DNA from: Nostoc sp. MG11
GTDB taxonomy: Bacteria > Cyanobacteriota > Cyanobacteriia > Cyanobacteriales > Nostocaceae
Assembly: GCF_014904695.1 (NCBI RefSeq)
Contig: NZ_JACXXN010000040.1
Coordinates: forward strand, 1-45,588
Length of the DNA: 45,588 nt
Direction of reading: 5' to 3'
The position numbers and the translations under genes were made by a program. Shown here piece by piece: positions 6,776-30,341 of the stretch. The notes beneath the pieces were generated by a model. The model was not told the origin of the DNA. It made no database searches and saw nothing but the letters and a program-made list of their open reading frames with translations. Each line of letters begins with the position of its first letter. Position 1 is the stretch's first letter.

Positions 6776-7267
6776 CTACATCTGATACGAAGCCGTCAAA
6801 GCTACCGCTAAAGCATCTGCCGCATCATCTGGCTTCGGAATCTTATCTAAATCCAACTCTCGTGCTACTGCCTCTTGCACCTCAGACTTATCGGCATTAC
6901 CGTACCCTGTTAAGGCTTGTTTAATTTGGGCAGGAGTAAACTCAACATACGGAAGACGACGCTGTCCCAATACCAAAATTAGTACACCCCGCGCCTGTGC
7001 AACAAGGATAGTGCTTGACATACGATAGAAGAATAGTTTTTCGATCGCAACCAAATCCGGTTGCAACTCCTCAATCAGGGCGTGCAAATCATCAAACAAG
7101 GTACACAAACGCTGTCCCATTTCTGCATCTGCCGATGTGCGGATTATACCAAAATCCAGCATATTTACTGTAGTATGTTGTACTTTGGTAGAACTTTGTG
7201 TGCAAGTAATTGCTCCAAAACCTAAAATCGCCAGTCCCGGATCTAATCCTAAAATTCGTTTTTCCAT
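6776..7267 (-). CDS. ruvC: Crossover junction endodeoxyribonuclease RuvC
   Basis: The 163-residue protein matches RuvC, the dimeric endonuclease that cuts Holliday junctions at the end of recombinational repair. It shows the acidic catalytic residues of the RNase H-like fold: Asp9 in [14 protein letters not shown], a Glu in LVAIEKLFF, and the C-terminal pair in [13 protein letters not shown]. Length is normal for the family. It starts 167 bases from the divergent YvcK-like gene, so the two share a promoter region. ruvA and ruvB are not in the window, as is usual in cyanobacteria where ruv genes are scattered. Confidence 0.95.
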
Positions 7268-7434
7268 TAAATCACTTTACTAAACCAGGCTGTTATTTAA
7301 CTAAGAAGGCTGGCGTGACGACTTGCTCTCAATTGAATGGAATTGAAAAATATAATAGTTCCACACTTGGTGTTTAAATCAGGTGGTATACATTTTCTGT
7401 TAATCATTGTTTGTAGCACTGCTCCAAATCAGGT

Positions 7435-8805
7435 ATGTCAATCGGTTTTTTCAGACAAGCCCTCAACGCCCTGCAAAAGCAGTCGCGCTCTCGAACTTCC
7501 CATCGAGTTAACCAGTGGTTTAAGTGGTTATCTCCTGGGCTATCGATAAAACGTTGGTTGCTAATCAGTGTTGGAGGTGTACTGCTGGCGAGTCTGGGGT
7601 TGGCTATTTGGGTTAAGTTGACCCCAATTTTTTGGATGATTGAGTTACTTAGGGGTTTTCTGGGGGTAATCACCAACATCTTACCCAACTATATCAGCGG
7701 GCCTTTAGTGTTGCTTTGCGGGTTTCTGCTGCTGCTTTGGGGGCAAACTCGCACCGTAGGCTCAATTACTAGGGTATTAAGACCAGAAGGTGAAGAGGAA
7801 CTTATTGATGTTCTGTTGGCGCATCGGCGATTGTATCGAGGCCCCAAAATAGTGGTGATTGGTGGCGGTACAGGACTCTCTACATTGTTGAGGGGACTCA
7901 AAACCTACAGCGCCAATATTACTGCTATTGTCACAGTAGCCGATGATGGCGGGTCTTCTGGACGGTTGCGCCAAGAGTTTGGAGTGCTACCACCAGGGGA
8001 TATTCGCAATTGTTTAGCAGCCCTAGCAGATGAAGAAAAGTTATTAACAGAATTGTTTCAATACCGCTTTCGTGCTGGCGATGGGTTAACGGGTCACAGT
8101 TTTGGTAATTTGTTTTTAACTGCAATGAGTGACATTACTGGAGATTTGGAACAGGCAGTTGCGGCCAGTTCCAAAGTGCTCGCGGTACGAGGACAAGTAT
8201 TACCAGCGACTCTCAGCGATGTTCGCCTCTGGGCAGAATTAGCCGATGGTCGCCGCATTGAAGGCGAGTCTAGCATTCCCAAAGCTGGGGGTAAAATTGT
8301 CAAACTTGGCTGTATTCCTGCTAATCCGCCAGCAGTACCAGCAGCTATTAAGGCACTTAAGGAAGCTGATTACATTATTATTGGCCCGGGTAGCCTTTAT
8401 ACTAGTTTAATTCCTAATTTGTTAGTACCAGAGATTGCCGACGCGATCGCCAAAACAGACGCCCCCCGTATTTATGTCTGCAATATCATGACTCAACCTG
8501 GAGAAACTGAAGGATACACTGTTGCTGACCACATCAGAGCTATTGATGCGGCTTGCGGGCAAAGACGACTATTTGATGCTGTGTTAGTACACAAAAAATC
8601 TCCCTCAGAGCAATCACTTATCCGCTATGCTCAACAAAATTCTCATCCCGTTTTCCTAGATAGAGAAGCCATATCTCAGCTAGGACGGCGGATTGTCCCA
8701 GCTAATGTTTTGTATGAAGATGAAATGGGTATCGTACGTCACAATCCGCAGAAACTAGCACGAGTGTTGTTACGGTGGTACGGTGGAGCTCATCATGGGA
8801 GATGA
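7435..8805 (+). CDS. YvcK/CofD-like protein (gluconeogenesis factor family) with membrane N-terminus
   Basis: The 456-residue protein carries a C-terminal YvcK/CofD-like domain from about residue 139, beginning [19 protein letters not shown] and including [20 protein letters not shown] and [11 protein letters not shown]. This domain binds a UDP-sugar or similar nucleotide in YvcK proteins and is linked to carbon metabolism and cell shape in other bacteria. About 135 extra N-terminal residues contain two or three hydrophobic segments (about 43-64, 68-88, 90-107), so the protein is likely membrane-anchored, an arrangement usual in cyanobacterial homologues but absent from Bacillus YvcK. The ATG is preceded only by a weak CAGG. 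Molecular function is not settled by sequence. Confidence 0.9.
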
Positions 8806-24596: not shown

Positions 24597-24604
24597 TCAC
24601 AAAC

Positions 24605-24637
24605 AGCCCCTCTCCACAAATTGAGAGGGGCTATTTT
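24605..24637 (+). terminator. Rho-independent terminator
   Basis: AGCCCCTCTC (24605-24614) pairs exactly with GAGAGGGGCT (24623-24632) and is followed by ATTTT, eight bases after the R3H ATPase stop. Confidence 0.85.
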
Positions 24638-24764
24638 GAAAAGATAGACATCAATAAAAGTTGCCTCTACAAGAAAGCGAATTTATCTAGCCTAACCTTC
24701 CTTAAAATGGTGAAAAGGAGAGTTATACAGCAATCCTAAATTACATGAACTGAGTTGAAAACTG

Positions 24765-25484
24765 CTACAAAGCATTTCGCAGCCGCCCCACCATCTCGGC
24801 ACGATTGACAACTTCCAATTTACGAAATATCCTTTTCAAAGCTTGTTTGACGGAATTTTCTGTAATCCAAAGTTTTTCACCAATTTCTGCATTCGTTAAC
24901 CCCTGTGCTACCAACTCAGCAATTTGAATTTCACGCGGGGTTAAGCGACTAGCTACAGAATAATTCAATCTTGTTTGTCGCATCCCTAAAGTTGCTAGAC
25001 AAGCTGACAGATGAGTGCAAACAGCGCTTAGGTCAGAAATATTTTGGTGATTAAATGCTGTTGTATGACCCACACGGGCAAAGTAAACTGCACCGATTAG
25101 ACTACCACCGCCTACTATTGGCCCAGTCATGATATGTTCGTGGTCATAGTAGGCGCAACAATTTTGATAAAGTTCGCATTGCTTCCAACCTCCTGGAGGT
25201 AATACCATTTCCTCGTGTGCTGGAGCATGATGCTCAACTACGTAGTGCAGTACTGGATCAACATCTCTACCAACCTTTTCGTAGAGTTCCACGAATGTAT
25301 CAACATTGGGCATACCGTGGACATCTACCGCAGCATAGCGCGATGATCGCTCATTCAGAAGATAGATTCCCCAACGTTGGACGCCAAAATGCTTGCCAAC
25401 TCCATCCATAAAGCAAAGTCTTAATTCGCGCTGATCACGAGCAGAGGCTAAGGCTTGAAATAAGTTATGAAGAGAATTAGCCAT
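24765..25484 (-). CDS. GAF-LuxR transcriptional regulator (first of a flanking pair)
   Basis: The 239-residue regulator has an N-terminal GAF-like sensor (about 15-160) and a C-terminal LuxR-type helix-turn-helix (RLTPREIQIAELVAQGL, then ITENSVKQALKRIFRKLEV). The start at MANSLH is chosen because the paralogue at 26264 starts identically and because an upstream extension would run into the divergent gene. The sensor carries HAPAHEE, a cysteine run KQCELYQNCCAYYDHEH and the segment MTGPIVGG, which could bind a metal or cofactor. It is divergent, with an 87-base gap, from the isonitrile-hydratase-like gene and likely controls it. The signal is unknown. Confidence 0.87.
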   Translation of the reverse strand: MANSLHNLFQALASARDQRELRLCFMDGVGKHFGVQRWGIYLLNERSSRYAAVDVHGMPNVDTFVELYEKVGRDVDPVLHYVVEHHAPAHEEMVLPPGGWKQCELYQNCCAYYDHEHIMTGPIVGGGSLIGAVYFARVGHTTAFNHQNISDLSAVCTHLSACLATLGMRQTRLNYSVASRLTPREIQIAELVAQGLTNAEIGEKLWITENSVKQALKRIFRKLEVVNRAEMVGRLRNAL

Positions 25485-25571
25485 TGAAATTAAGTGTACT
25501 CGATTGAGGACTAGGCAGAATCGATACTCATTTTTACCATAGTCCGTAACAATCGTTAAGAGAATTTGATA

Positions 25572-26267
25572 ATGACAAATCCAGCAAAATATCACATTGG
25601 TCTAGTTATTTTCCCTGCTATGACTCAACTCGATATGACTGGGCCTTATCAGGTATTTGCCCTTATGCCTGAAACTTGCATTCATTTGTTGTGGAAGAAT
25701 TTGCAGCCAGTAACGAGCAATGAGGGGATGACGATTTTACCCACTACCACTTTTGATAACTGTCCATCGCTGGATGTTTTGTGTGTGCCTGGTGGCCCTG
25801 GACAGGTAGAAATGATGCGAGATACTGAAGTGCTGAATTTTCTCCAGCAACAGGGTAAAACCGCAAAATATACTACTTCGGTGTGTACTGGCTCTTTAAT
25901 TCTAGCGGCGGCTGGATTACTACAAGGCTATCGCGCTGCTTGTCATTGGGCATTTCGTGACCAGCTAGCAATGTTGGGGGTTGAGGTTGGAACTGAAAGA
26001 GTGGTAGTTGACCGCGATCGCATTACAGGCGGTGGTGTTACCGCTGGGATTGATTTTGGACTGATAGTTGCTGCTCATCTGTGCGGTGAAGAAACAGCCA
26101 AGCTGATTCAGCTATTGCTGGAGTATAACCCTGCACCACCTTTTAACGTCGGTTCGCCAGAAAATGCTGGGGAGGCTTTAGTTGAACAGGTGAAAAAAGT
26201 AGGGGAGCAGTTGATTAAAGTATCTCTTGCACAGACGAAGCAAACAGCCAAGTTGTTGGGTGTTTAA
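25572..26267 (+). CDS. DJ-1/PfpI family protein, isonitrile hydratase-like
   Basis: The 231-residue protein belongs to the DJ-1/PfpI class with nucleophile Cys in TTSVCTGSLILAAAGLL, plus VPGGPGQ, CHWAFRDQL, DRDRITGGGVTAGIDFGL and EYNPAPPFNVGSPE. The last two segments recall Pseudomonas isonitrile (cyclohexyl-isocyanide) hydratase InhA, which converts isonitriles to N-formamides. A related DJ-1-type amidase or glyoxalase role is possible. ATG at 25572 is preferred to TTG at 25566. It sits between two paralogous LuxR regulators: divergent from one, and overlapping the other by four bases at their convergent stops (TTAA). No isonitrile synthase is in the window. Confidence 0.85.
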   Translation: MTNPAKYHIGLVIFPAMTQLDMTGPYQVFALMPETCIHLLWKNLQPVTSNEGMTILPTTTFDNCPSLDVLCVPGGPGQVEMMRDTEVLNFLQQQGKTAKYTTSVCTGSLILAAAGLLQGYRAACHWAFRDQLAMLGVEVGTERVVVDRDRITGGGVTAGIDFGLIVAAHLCGEETAKLIQLLLEYNPAPPFNVGSPENAGEALVEQVKKVGEQLIKVSLAQTKQTAKLLGV

Positions 26268-26953
26268 TTGATTTGTTCGGACTGTTGAGGAGATATCGAA
26301 TGCAGCTTTGCTACCATCTCAGTACGCGCCGAAACCTCTAGTTTGCGAAACATCCTCTTCAAAGCTTGTTTGACGGAGTTTTGCGTAATCCAAAGTTTTT
26401 CACCAATTTCCGCATTTGTTAACCCTTGCGCTACTAGTTCAGCAATTTCTAACTCACGTGCTGTTAGTGGACTGATTAAAAAGGAGTTGGAGATTTTTGG
26501 TTTCGTCCGCAGGGTTGCCATTTTTGCTGACAAATGAAGGCATAAAGCGCTCAGGTCAGCTAAATCGTTGGCATTAAAGGCAGGATTCCCCTTGTCGCGG
26601 GTAAAGTTCAGCGTTCCTACCAGATGACCATCGCAAACAATTGGCCCTGTCATCACGTGTTCGTGGTCATGGCGCGGGCAAATATGCTTCCAGTCGCCTG
26701 GAGATAGTATTAATTGCTCATGAGCGGGTGCGTGACGCTCAACCACGTAGCGCCCGACGGGATTGCTTTCTAAGCATACTGCCGGAATGCCCGGAATATT
26801 AATCTCAGCCGTTGGCGGCTCATCTAGGAGATAGATACCCCAATTTTGCACGCCGAAATGTTCGCTAATTTTATCCACCAGAGCTAGTTTTAATTCTTGC
26901 TCATTACGGACATTAGCGATCGCATGAAATACGGCGTGAAGAGAATTAGCCAT
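26264..26953 (-). CDS. GAF-LuxR transcriptional regulator (second of a flanking pair)
   Basis: The 229-residue paralogue of the regulator at 24765 has the same plan: a GAF-like sensor with HFGVQNWGIYLLDE, VVERHAPAHEQ, CPRHDHEHVMTGPIV, and a LuxR helix-turn-helix (PLTARELEIAELVAQGL, then ITQNSVKQALKRMFRKLEV). It has one cysteine where the first copy has a cluster of three, so ligand properties may differ. The start at MANSLH (26953) matches the paralogue; both starts are preceded by GTACACTTA. It converges on the isonitrile-hydratase-like gene with overlapping stop codons. It is divergent from the DUF3386 gene, which it might also control. Confidence 0.86.
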   Translation of the reverse strand: MANSLHAVFHAIANVRNEQELKLALVDKISEHFGVQNWGIYLLDEPPTAEINIPGIPAVCLESNPVGRYVVERHAPAHEQLILSPGDWKHICPRHDHEHVMTGPIVCDGHLVGTLNFTRDKGNPAFNANDLADLSALCLHLSAKMATLRTKPKISNSFLISPLTARELEIAELVAQGLTNAEIGEKLWITQNSVKQALKRMFRKLEVSARTEMVAKLHSISPQQSEQIN

Positions 26954-27052
26954 AAGTGTACCCAGTTGGGGTCTATCCAAGGCTCAACAATTACTTCTAT
27001 GCTAATACCAAGAAAACTAAAACGCTAATTACAGTGGCGATAGGAGAAGCAC

Positions 27053-27706
27053 ATGACAGTTACACAACTCTCTGCTCAGGAACTTTTCCGGGCTGCTTAT
27101 GAGAACCGCTATACGTGGGATAAGAATTTCCCCGGTTACACTGCAAATATTACCTATAAGCATGACGATAAGGTGTTTACAGGCAAAGTTCTCGTCAACG
27201 CTAATCTCAAGGCGGAAGTTTTGGATGTAGACGATGAGCAAGCAAAACAGGCAATTCACGGTCAAGCTTGGGAGATAGCAATTCACCGCATCCGCCGCAG
27301 CTTTGAAGACACCCACAGCACAAATACTTTTAGCTATGGCAAAACTGACGAAACTGGTGCGGTTGAGCTTTTAGTTGGTGGTAAGGCTGAGGGCGATAAA
27401 TACAAAGTCCGCAATAATGAGGTGTGCCATGTTCACCGTCTCATCCACGGTACTTTTGTGACAATTGACACTTTCAGCAGTCACGATACTGGCGAAGGCT
27501 ACCTGTCTCACACTTATGACTCCGTGTATCATGACCCCAAAACTGGGGAACAAAAGGGTGGAAGAAGCGAATTTACAGATGAGTATGAAAAGGTTGGTAA
27601 CTATTTCATTCTGAATCGTCGAGAAATTCGCACTGAGATAGAAGGACAAATATCTGTTCAGGAATTTGTGTTCTCTGATATCAAATTGTTAGAGCCTGCT
27701 GCTTAA
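27053..27706 (+). CDS. DUF3386 family protein
   Basis: The 217-residue soluble protein resembles the cyanobacterial DUF3386 family (LSAQELFRAAYENRYTWD, FPGYTANITY, EVCHVHRLIHGTFVTI, HTYDSVYHDPKTGEQ). No signal peptide, membrane segment or catalytic motif is evident; the pattern of alternating strands suggests a lipocalin-like or outer-membrane-lipoprotein-carrier-like beta fold, which is inference. A good ribosome binding site (AGGAG) precedes the ATG. It is divergent from the second LuxR regulator with a 99-base gap, and a terminator follows. Function unknown. Confidence 0.75.
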   Translation: MTVTQLSAQELFRAAYENRYTWDKNFPGYTANITYKHDDKVFTGKVLVNANLKAEVLDVDDEQAKQAIHGQAWEIAIHRIRRSFEDTHSTNTFSYGKTDETGAVELLVGGKAEGDKYKVRNNEVCHVHRLIHGTFVTIDTFSSHDTGEGYLSHTYDSVYHDPKTGEQKGGRSEFTDEYEKVGNYFILNRREIRTEIEGQISVQEFVFSDIKLLEPAA

Positions 27707-27732
27707 ACTGCATGTCTTGAATATAAATATAG

Positions 27733-27775
27733 GCGATCGCTCTTTTAATTAAGGAGGTGATCGCTTTTCTTTTTA
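27733..27775 (+). terminator. Rho-independent terminator built on a HIP1 site
   Basis: GCGATCGCTC pairs with GAGGTGATCGC around an AT loop and is followed by TTTTCTTTTT, 27 bases after the DUF3386 stop. The stem incorporates the HIP1 octamer. Confidence 0.65.
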
Positions 27776-27842
27776 GTGTTCCAAGTTCTCAGCATGAACT
27801 TTCGAGAAAAAAGCTTGATGTTCCAAGTTCTGAGATGAAATC

Positions 27843-28847: not shown

Positions 28848-30341
28848 CTAAATACTATGAGCAAGCGGTTGATAATTAGATATCCGCTCATATCCTCTGT
28901 AAATATACTTTTTAAGTAATTTTCCTACAATCGAAATACTTTGCTCAATCTCTTCTGGTGAGAGGCAAAAAGTTAGACGCATAGCCGGATAACCCTGCTT
29001 ATCTGTAAAAAACGCCGAACCACACGCCAGGTAAACATTTTGTGCAAAAGCTTCATTACGAATTGTTTGAATAGAAAGATCATCCGGTAGCTGCACCCAG
29101 AGAAATAATCCTCCCGTGGGAACTGTCCACCGTGCCTCTTGGGGAAAATAACGCTCTAAAGCTTGCAGCATTGCATTACGACTTTGCAGATTATCTGTGC
29201 GAAGTCGGCTGAGGTGTCTGCGGTAATGTCCTGAAGCGAGATACTCACTTACTATTGCTTGAGAAATACTAGATGTGTGCAAATCATGGAGCAATTTCTG
29301 CTCAATAATTGCTTGATGATGCTTACCTGTAATTACCATATAACCCACTCGTAAACCAGGCATCAAAGTTTTAGAAAAGGTACTTAAATAAGTTACTAAA
29401 TCATTTTTATCTAAAGCTTTAATTGGTGCTGGTACAGGCTGGAAACTTATTCCTTCATAGGCGTTATCTTCTAAAATTGGACACTCGTATTTTTCGGCTA
29501 GTGCTAGCAATTGTTGGCGATGTGCTTGTGTTGTTGTTAATCCAGTGGGATTGTGGAAAGTGCTGATCGTATAAATTAATTTGGGGCGGTGGCTGTGTAA
29601 ATATTGTTCTAATAATTCTAGATTCATTCCCTCTGCTGTCATGGAAATGCCAATAATTCTGGCTCCTAAGTTTTCTAAAATGGATATTGCACCATAATAT
29701 GTGGGTGCTTCTACAATCACCCAATCACCAGGTTTTACATAATAGTTCATCGCTAATGACAACCCTTGCTGAGAGCCATTAGTAATAATCAAATCTTCTG
29801 GAAAAACCTCTAATCCTTGTTGCACTAGCATCTGAGCAATTTGTCTGCATAAAGTTAGTTGTCCTTGAGGCATATCATGAGAAAAGAAAAGATCAGGGTT
29901 TTCTTGTCTTAATGCTCGTCTAGCAATGAGGTTGATATCTTTTGGTGGATGAGGATAACCGTAGCCTAAATTAATTACTCCTGGCTGCGTTTTGGCTTGC
30001 ACCAAGGGAGTGTACATATCATAAAAAGAACTCTTGTCTGGCTCTAGAATTGTGACATTTTGGGCTGGGGAAAATGTAGATTTCAGGTTGGTACAGTGAA
30101 GAGAAACGCTGTTGACAAAATATCCAGATCCCTGACGAGCCAAAACAATACCATCGGCTTCTAAAACGCTATACGCTTCAATAATCGTGAGTTTATTGAC
30201 CTGCAAACTTTCTGCAAGTGAGCGAATAGAAGGGAGGCGATCGCCACTTTTCAGTGCGCCAGATTTGATAAGATGACTAATGCGATCGCGTATCTGTAAA
30301 TAAATAGGTTTGTGTGCTTGCCGTTCTAAAATAATATTCAT
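28848..30341 (-). CDS. MocR/GntR-type regulator with aminotransferase domain
   Basis: The 497-residue protein joins an N-terminal GntR winged helix (LQIRDRISHLIKSGALKSGDRLPSIR written in part: SGALKSGDRLPSIRSLAES, about 15-75) to a class I aminotransferase fold (about 110-480) with the PLP lysine in LSTFSKTLMPGLRVGYM. MocR regulators use PLP or an amino-acid adduct as ligand, often to control vitamin B6, GABA or taurine genes. It could also act as a genuine aminotransferase. It is divergent from the small gene at 30558 and a matching inverted repeat lies in between. Length is usual. Confidence 0.9.
   Translation of the reverse strand: MNIILERQAHKPIYLQIRDRISHLIKSGALKSGDRLPSIRSLAESLQVNKLTIIEAYSVLEADGIVLARQGSGYFVNSVSLHCTNLKSTFSPAQNVTILEPDKSSFYDMYTPLVQAKTQPGVINLGYGYPHPPKDINLIARRALRQENPDLFFSHDMPQGQLTLCRQIAQMLVQQGLEVFPEDLIITNGSQQGLSLAMNYYVKPGDWVIVEAPTYYGAISILENLGARIIGISMTAEGMNLELLEQYLHSHRPKLIYTISTFHNPTGLTTTQAHRQQLLALAEKYECPILEDNAYEGISFQPVPAPIKALDKNDLVTYLSTFSKTLMPGLRVGYMVITGKHHQAIIEQKLLHDLHTSSISQAIVSEYLASGHYRRHLSRLRTDNLQSRNAMLQALERYFPQEARWTVPTGGLFLWVQLPDDLSIQTIRNEAFAQNVYLACGSAFFTDKQGYPAMRLTFCLSPEEIEQSISIVGKLLKKYIYRGYERISNYQPLAHSI

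Follow-up and report, generated by a model that had tools for sequence, protein, structure and literature searches.

LuxR/FixJ/NarL-type activators, such as LuxR and TraR, bind a dyad next to the -35 region of their target, the class II position. Among cyanobacterial proteins, PedR (Synechocystis ssl0564) is a LuxR-type redox regulator that switches by a plain cysteine, activating some genes and repressing its own operon (PMC13421787, excerpt). Hik2 is a sensor kinase whose GAF domain carries a redox-active metal cofactor, [3Fe-4S] (PMC13421787, excerpt).

The regulators described here, RegA and RegB of Nostoc sp. MG11, resemble each of these systems in part. They share with LuxR-type activators the GerE-type helix-turn-helix (HTH), a dyad near an inferred position of -43.5 or -44.5, a local target and a divergent gene order, but their sensor is of GAF type with a set of His and Cys residues, not an autoinducer or receiver domain. 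PedR is likewise cyanobacterial with a LuxR-type HTH, but its NCBIfam model spans 74 positions, too short for a GAF domain, and its motif, RWWTRGGYNNYY, differs from the operator of the RegA/RegB family (PMC13421787, excerpt). Unlike the Hik2 kinase, RegA and RegB are one-component proteins; their sensor has five His and two Cys, and their cofactor is putative. Among open-licence PMC texts, mostly judged from listings of the best-ranked hits, we recognised no account of this regulator family. We interpret the locus as two independent divergent modules, RegA with a DJ-1/PfpI enzyme and RegB with a DUF3386 protein, that belong to one cyanobacterial one-component GAF-LuxR family and activate via a conserved dyad (probability about 0.72).

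Layout of the locus and identity of the regulators

The window, that is, the whole stretch of 45,588 nucleotides that was analysed, contains the following features of the two predicted modules.

24765-25484, minus strand: RegA, 239 aa; sensor domain (GAF by alignment to RegB) and C-terminal LuxR/GerE HTH, with Glu209 in the recognition helix
25495-25513, minus strand: operator A, TAGTCCTCAATCGAGTACA (Glu-type), between RegA and the enzyme gene
25535-25540, plus strand: inferred -10 box of the enzyme promoter, TACCAT, 31 nt from the centre of operator A (from sequence and offset)
25572-26267, plus strand: DJ-1/PfpI enzyme, 231 aa, close to isocyanide (isonitrile) hydratase
26264-26953, minus strand: RegB, 229 aa; GAF and LuxR/GerE HTH, with Gln191 as the equivalent of RegA Glu209
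26957-26975, minus strand: operator B, TAGACCCCAACTGGGTACA (Gln-type), with 3 nt between it and the RegB start codon
26998-27003, plus strand: inferred -10 box of the DUF3386 promoter, TATGCT, 32 nt from the centre of operator B (from sequence and offset)
27053-27706, plus strand: DUF3386 protein, divergent partner and likely target of RegB

An open reading frame check of the window bore out the groundwork of the preliminary description. The three genes it named are real, with coordinates, orientation, motifs and paralogy as first noted (RegA and RegB are 57% identical), and the enzyme gene is, as proposed, divergent from RegA (start codons 87 nt apart) and overlaps the 3' end of RegB with its own 3' end (by 4 nt). 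The arrangement of two regulators bracketing the enzyme is also present, but the block as originally drawn left out the DUF3386 gene, the divergent partner of RegB. Phage sequences gave no match to positions 24600-27800 of the window. Further along, at 28848-30341, lies a MocR/PdxR-like GntR-aminotransferase regulator, which scores 304.2 bits, just below the NCBIfam PdxR cut-off of 320.

The assignment of both regulators as GAF-LuxR proteins holds for the HTH of both and, by Pfam score, for the GAF domain of RegB alone. The GerE HTH (PF00196) is above the Pfam cut-off in RegA and RegB (53.2 and 50.9 versus 23.5 bits). The GAF model PF01590 gives 27.5 bits in RegB against a cut-off of 22.4 and no match in RegA at E 0.001, yet RegA aligns to RegB over its full length. 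We rejected the label of quorum-sensing LuxR protein and that of two-component response regulator, since the Pfam autoinducer-binding and receiver domains are absent from RegA and RegB at E 0.001. The PedR label was also rejected (NCBIfam NF052366, 37.9 and 36.3 bits versus a cut-off of 120).

Divergent partners in related genomes

Each regulator clade has its own divergent partners. We searched for RegA in the window's own genome and in 59 relatives, 60 genomes in all, 43 of which contained a match at E 1e-20, and fetched 12 loci from named relatives and 40 further stretches. In a tree of 85 regulator sequences, 17 rows grouped with RegA (clade A), 37 with RegB (clade B) and 29 in clade C, with two outliers. 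Partners were counted over 2.5 kb on the divergent side of the 79 unique upstream regions that were long enough. In all 16 clade A regions the regulator faced a DJ-1/PfpI gene, with an extra gene, an alpha/beta-hydrolase by eye, between regulator and DJ-1 in one of them (G059); clade B faced DUF3386 in 31 of 32. The 29 clade C regions were more varied (partner families by Pfam names): a tandem rhodanese stood opposite in 15, MAPEG in seven (one behind a second regulator) and DJ-1 in four, while the remaining three had DUF6220 alone, a response-regulator/kinase gene (by eye) alone, and none of these.

Two features of the clade C neighbourhoods stood out. A small DUF6220 gene accompanies 11 more clade C regions; it occurs near regulators of this clade in L054-L057, L061, L063, L066, L067, L070, L080-L082 and L197, mostly beside rhodanese, MAPEG or DJ-1, and this recurrence hints at a shared accessory role. 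One of these loci (L054:4959-6528) has two family regulators in tandem; the outer one, which lies opposite a MAPEG gene, has lost H86, C110 and H115.

The two modules also occur apart. RegA and the enzyme were found without RegB in several fetched stretches, among them those of Calothrix, Tychonema and a Richelia MAG (L045-L047), and RegB and DUF3386 were found without RegA in many relatives (L018-L037). The three-gene block that had been put forward as a unit was retained in three of the four same-genus relatives (G001, G003, G004) but not in the fourth, G002, from which both RegA and the enzyme are missing. The RegA-enzyme-RegB arrangement recurs in some other genomes and stretches (G019, G014, G007, L043, L044), and G005 has the enzyme and RegB and lacks RegA (L033, L126). 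Since each pair occurs alone, we interpret the appearance of two regulators around one enzyme as juxtaposition. The earlier suggestion that the regulators control the enzyme thus stands for RegA, its local regulator, but not for RegB, which goes with DUF3386.

DUF3386 itself was present in 55 of the 60 genomes, the window's own included, and a literature search by that name gave nothing; its pairing with RegB would give a handle on DUF3386 function. The same genome has a second DUF3386 gene (C205:337560-338240), about 56 kb from the RegC-rhodanese locus.

Conserved His and Cys residues of the sensor domain

The sensor domain has a strongly conserved set of seven residues, which we consider the most interesting part of the system. 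H86, H90, C110, H115, H117, C156 and H158 were conserved at 96-100% across 81 full-length rows, with H117 and H158 in all 81, so the conservation of Cys/His residues on which the preliminary description depended is confirmed. Its HAPAHE and DHEH motifs were also found in both regulators. The cysteines it placed near DHEH are there, three in RegA (C103, C109, C110) and one in RegB, but only C110 is family-wide (98%); the other His and Cys of RegA, including C103 and C109, are not. Exceptions were few: C110 and H115 are both missing from two outlying proteins, of which one also lacks H86 and one also C156, and four further sequences each lack one of the seven. The 24 most conserved columns of the sensor, one of them a gap column, include all seven, moderately more than expected by chance (hypergeometric p 0.005).

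This strong conservation makes a metal or cofactor site plausible, and the seven-residue set supports a putative metal or cofactor. We propose that these residues, five His that are invariant or nearly so and two Cys, probably bind a metal or a metal cofactor, or else form a metal/thiol switch. If the set binds metal, it would be a GAF cofactor type matching none that we know of. The signal may be a redox, electrophile or metal-linked stress, since such a stress suits the variety of targets more readily than isonitriles do.

That the residues act without metal, as a thiol switch or as structural residues of an organic-ligand pocket, is possible, although we lean against it. PedR offers a precedent for a plain cysteine switch in a cyanobacterial LuxR-type regulator (PMC13421787, excerpt), and Foldseek placed the RegB model nearest to quorum-sensing LuxR receptors, with GAF domains lower, in a comparison of a weak model at low TM-scores that supports a LuxR/GAF-like shape only. 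AlphaFold modelled the sensor domain of both regulators with low confidence (mean pLDDT 62.4 and 65.5), too low to place the residues. Against a reading without metal, a thiol switch would have no need of His, yet His makes up five of the seven residues, and two of these His are without exception in the full-length rows.

Operator and promoter geometry

A conserved dyad lies between regulator and target. The pattern TAGWCCYCRWNYRRGTACA, whose core is a 16-bp dyad, was found at two or fewer mismatches in 74 of the 79 upstream regions, 49 of them perfect, compared with 0.06% of single-base shuffles of the same regions. We note that this pattern was derived by visual comparison of the same regions side by side, so their fit is in-sample, and that the regions are related by descent. 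The operator was absent or poor in the other five, including the G059 clade A locus. Out of sample, operator and box were found in 22 of 22 loci, 19 from new genomes and three on plasmids; the new-genome loci came from 29 new loci (L090-L118), the best-scoring phylum matches, 19 of them in unused genomes, and 13 of the 22 were of RegB (Gln) type. One of the 29 new loci has a second perfect operator with a -10 box (L108:3019-3037), about 1.5 kb from the first.

The dyad stands at a fixed distance from a -10-like box. TAnnnT occurred 31-32 nt from the dyad centre, on the target side, in 73 of 73 testable regions, and at other offsets from 15 to 59 in at most 11. An alternative -10 score (at least four of six matches to TATAAT) gave a smaller secondary peak nearer the operator, at offsets 19-20 (13 of 74 and 24 of 73 regions). 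A -35 hexamer (at least four of six matches) was no more frequent than in shuffles (17 of 73 regions, or 23%, versus 19%). With the box beginning at -12, the dyad centre would fall at about -43.5 or -44.5, near where LuxR-type activators sit in the class II arrangement, which makes class II activation most likely. We therefore envisage that a regulator dimer would bind the 16-bp dyad in the shared intergenic region and most likely activate the target in the class II manner of LuxR-type proteins, from a promoter that has no recognisable -35. Judged from these features, the local regulatory system appears well defined, with activation its most likely mode.

The regulator probably also limits its own expression. 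The operator was usually close to the regulator's own start codon (within 19 nt in 65 of 74 regions), which suggests self-limitation, though in the other nine regions, at 25-96 nt, it is a poor fit to autorepression by covering the start. A different arrangement, in which the regulators repress their divergent targets until signal binding lifts the repression, would suit both this closeness and a dyad that covers the target's -35 region. We consider it unlikely, as a constant spacing across clades with different targets, together with the missing -35, points to activation.

The operator accompanies a divergent regulator and appears to serve the target gene. Of 25 enzyme loci fetched, 13 had a divergent regulator in the fetched stretch, all with an operator, compared with one of the 12 without; G059 was scored among the latter, its regulator lying beyond another gene. 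Similarly, among the 30 best-scoring DUF3386 loci, an operator was found in 24 of 24 with RegB and one of six without. Some of these enzyme and DUF3386 loci duplicate regions of the 79 set. In G024, the one exception among the six, RegB is located elsewhere without an operator (L084) and DUF3386 retains operator and box (L187); this split, in which the operator stays with DUF3386 and not with RegB, indicates that the site serves the target.

Residue 209 and probable insulation of the two modules

Operator variants covary with a residue of the recognition helix. Among variable HTH positions, residue 209 carried the most information about the operator (78 regions, three or fewer mismatches): T at operator index 11 was found in none of 37 regions with Glu209 and in 35 of 37 with Gln209. 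The 22 out-of-sample loci all fit (Glu with C in eight, Gln with T in 13, His with T in one), and clade A holds both the Glu and the Gln state. The tree provides two supported independent Glu/Gln contrasts, or three on all branches, too few for a sign test to reach significance. In the window, RegA has Glu and a Glu-type site, and RegB has Gln and a Gln-type site. Since the neighbours differ at a residue that covaries with the operator, cross-regulation is unlikely and the RegA and RegB modules are probably insulated from each other, if the covariation is causal.

Further operator sites in the genome

A larger regulon was considered but drew no support from numbers: sites matching the operator pattern were not in excess across this genome, where 19 occurred at two or fewer mismatches versus 29 for a reversed control. 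Four sites are at family promoters: two in the window, one at the RegC-rhodanese locus on C205, and one on C41. The C41 site is a Glu-type operator with a -10 box, orphaned in having no adjacent family regulator, beside a second DJ-1 gene (60% identical; C41:831-1577; L143, L148); L143 is also the sole operator-positive enzyme locus without a divergent regulator. The other one-mismatch sites (two on C99, one on C227) have no box at +31/32. Three of 12 two-mismatch sites (L156, L157, L158) have TAnnnT at +31/32, and sites of this type may mark further targets.

The enzyme and the isonitrile question

The enzyme resembles isocyanide hydratase. It scores 90.3 bits to PF01965 (cut-off 26.6), and its best solved relative is the isocyanide hydratase of Pseudomonas fluorescens (PDB 3non; 232.7 bits, 104 of 203 aligned residues identical). 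The nucleophile Cys, the Thr next to it, the active-site Asp and a Gly are retained, with Cys105 and Asp21 aligned to the catalytic Cys and Asp, which we take to be C101 and D17 of the known enzyme. The enzyme differs in having Val for I152, and its hydratase activity is putative. We rejected the identities of DJ-1 glyoxalase III and PfpI/YhbO deglycase, whose NCBIfam scores were far below the cut-offs (58.7 versus 131.25 and 39.8 versus 139.05 bits).

The isonitrile-synthase family PF05141 was not detected in this genome. The search was equally silent on its 14 named controls but gave matches in four of 59 relatives; of the nine relatives that carry a clade A gene, G059 alone had one. A single isonitrile circuit with two regulators was rejected, because RegB pairs with DUF3386 and the synthase was undetected here.

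A gene annotated inhA (cyclohexyl-isocyanide hydratase) in Chlorogloeopsis fritschii PCC 6912 was among six genes upregulated, with log fold changes of about 3-6, only under far-red light with a modified, anoxic atmosphere (PMC10830646, excerpt). If that gene bears the operator, this response might point to a redox or oxygen signal, but it is only a lead.

A broader ligand range is also conceivable, though we hold it to be very unlikely. RegA and RegB would here represent a new one-component sensor class, in which a five-His/two-Cys metal centre in a GAF domain would read small ligands such as cyanide, isonitriles, NO or CO. The copies would share one DNA-binding code, differ in their operators and each turn on a single detoxifying gene. 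Such a sensor of strong-field ligands, if true, would explain the recurring isocyanide-hydratase-like and tandem rhodanese (cyanide chemistry) targets.

The isonitrile link is the weakest part of the original proposal: that a pair of metal-GAF isonitrile sensors induces an isonitrile-degrading enzyme agrees with the hydratase-like active site, the conserved His/Cys sites and the DJ-1 gene opposite every clade A regulator, but we give it scarcely any credence, as the synthase is undetected in this genome (with the caveat that isonitriles may come from neighbouring organisms) and regulators with the same His/Cys set face DUF3386, in the case of RegB, or rhodanese, MAPEG and DUF6220.

Distribution

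The preferred reading of two activating modules gives a testable family in Nostocales and some other cyanobacteria, defined by its operator, promoter geometry, one-residue specificity rule and target list. Of 386 phylum genomes, this one included, 58 contained a match at E 1e-25, and 42 of those 58 belong to the window's family. Seven plasmid records matched at E 1e-30, five of which are from Synechococcus elongatus PCC 7942 or 6301. On pANL of S. elongatus PCC 7942 (L195:5981-8708, with the divergent pair at 7183-8708), the regulator faces a DJ-1 gene, behind which comes a gene for an NAD(P)-dependent alcohol dehydrogenase; judged by its insert and partner, the regulator looks RegA-like. This pair, which has a perfect operator and box, makes the family accessible in a model strain.
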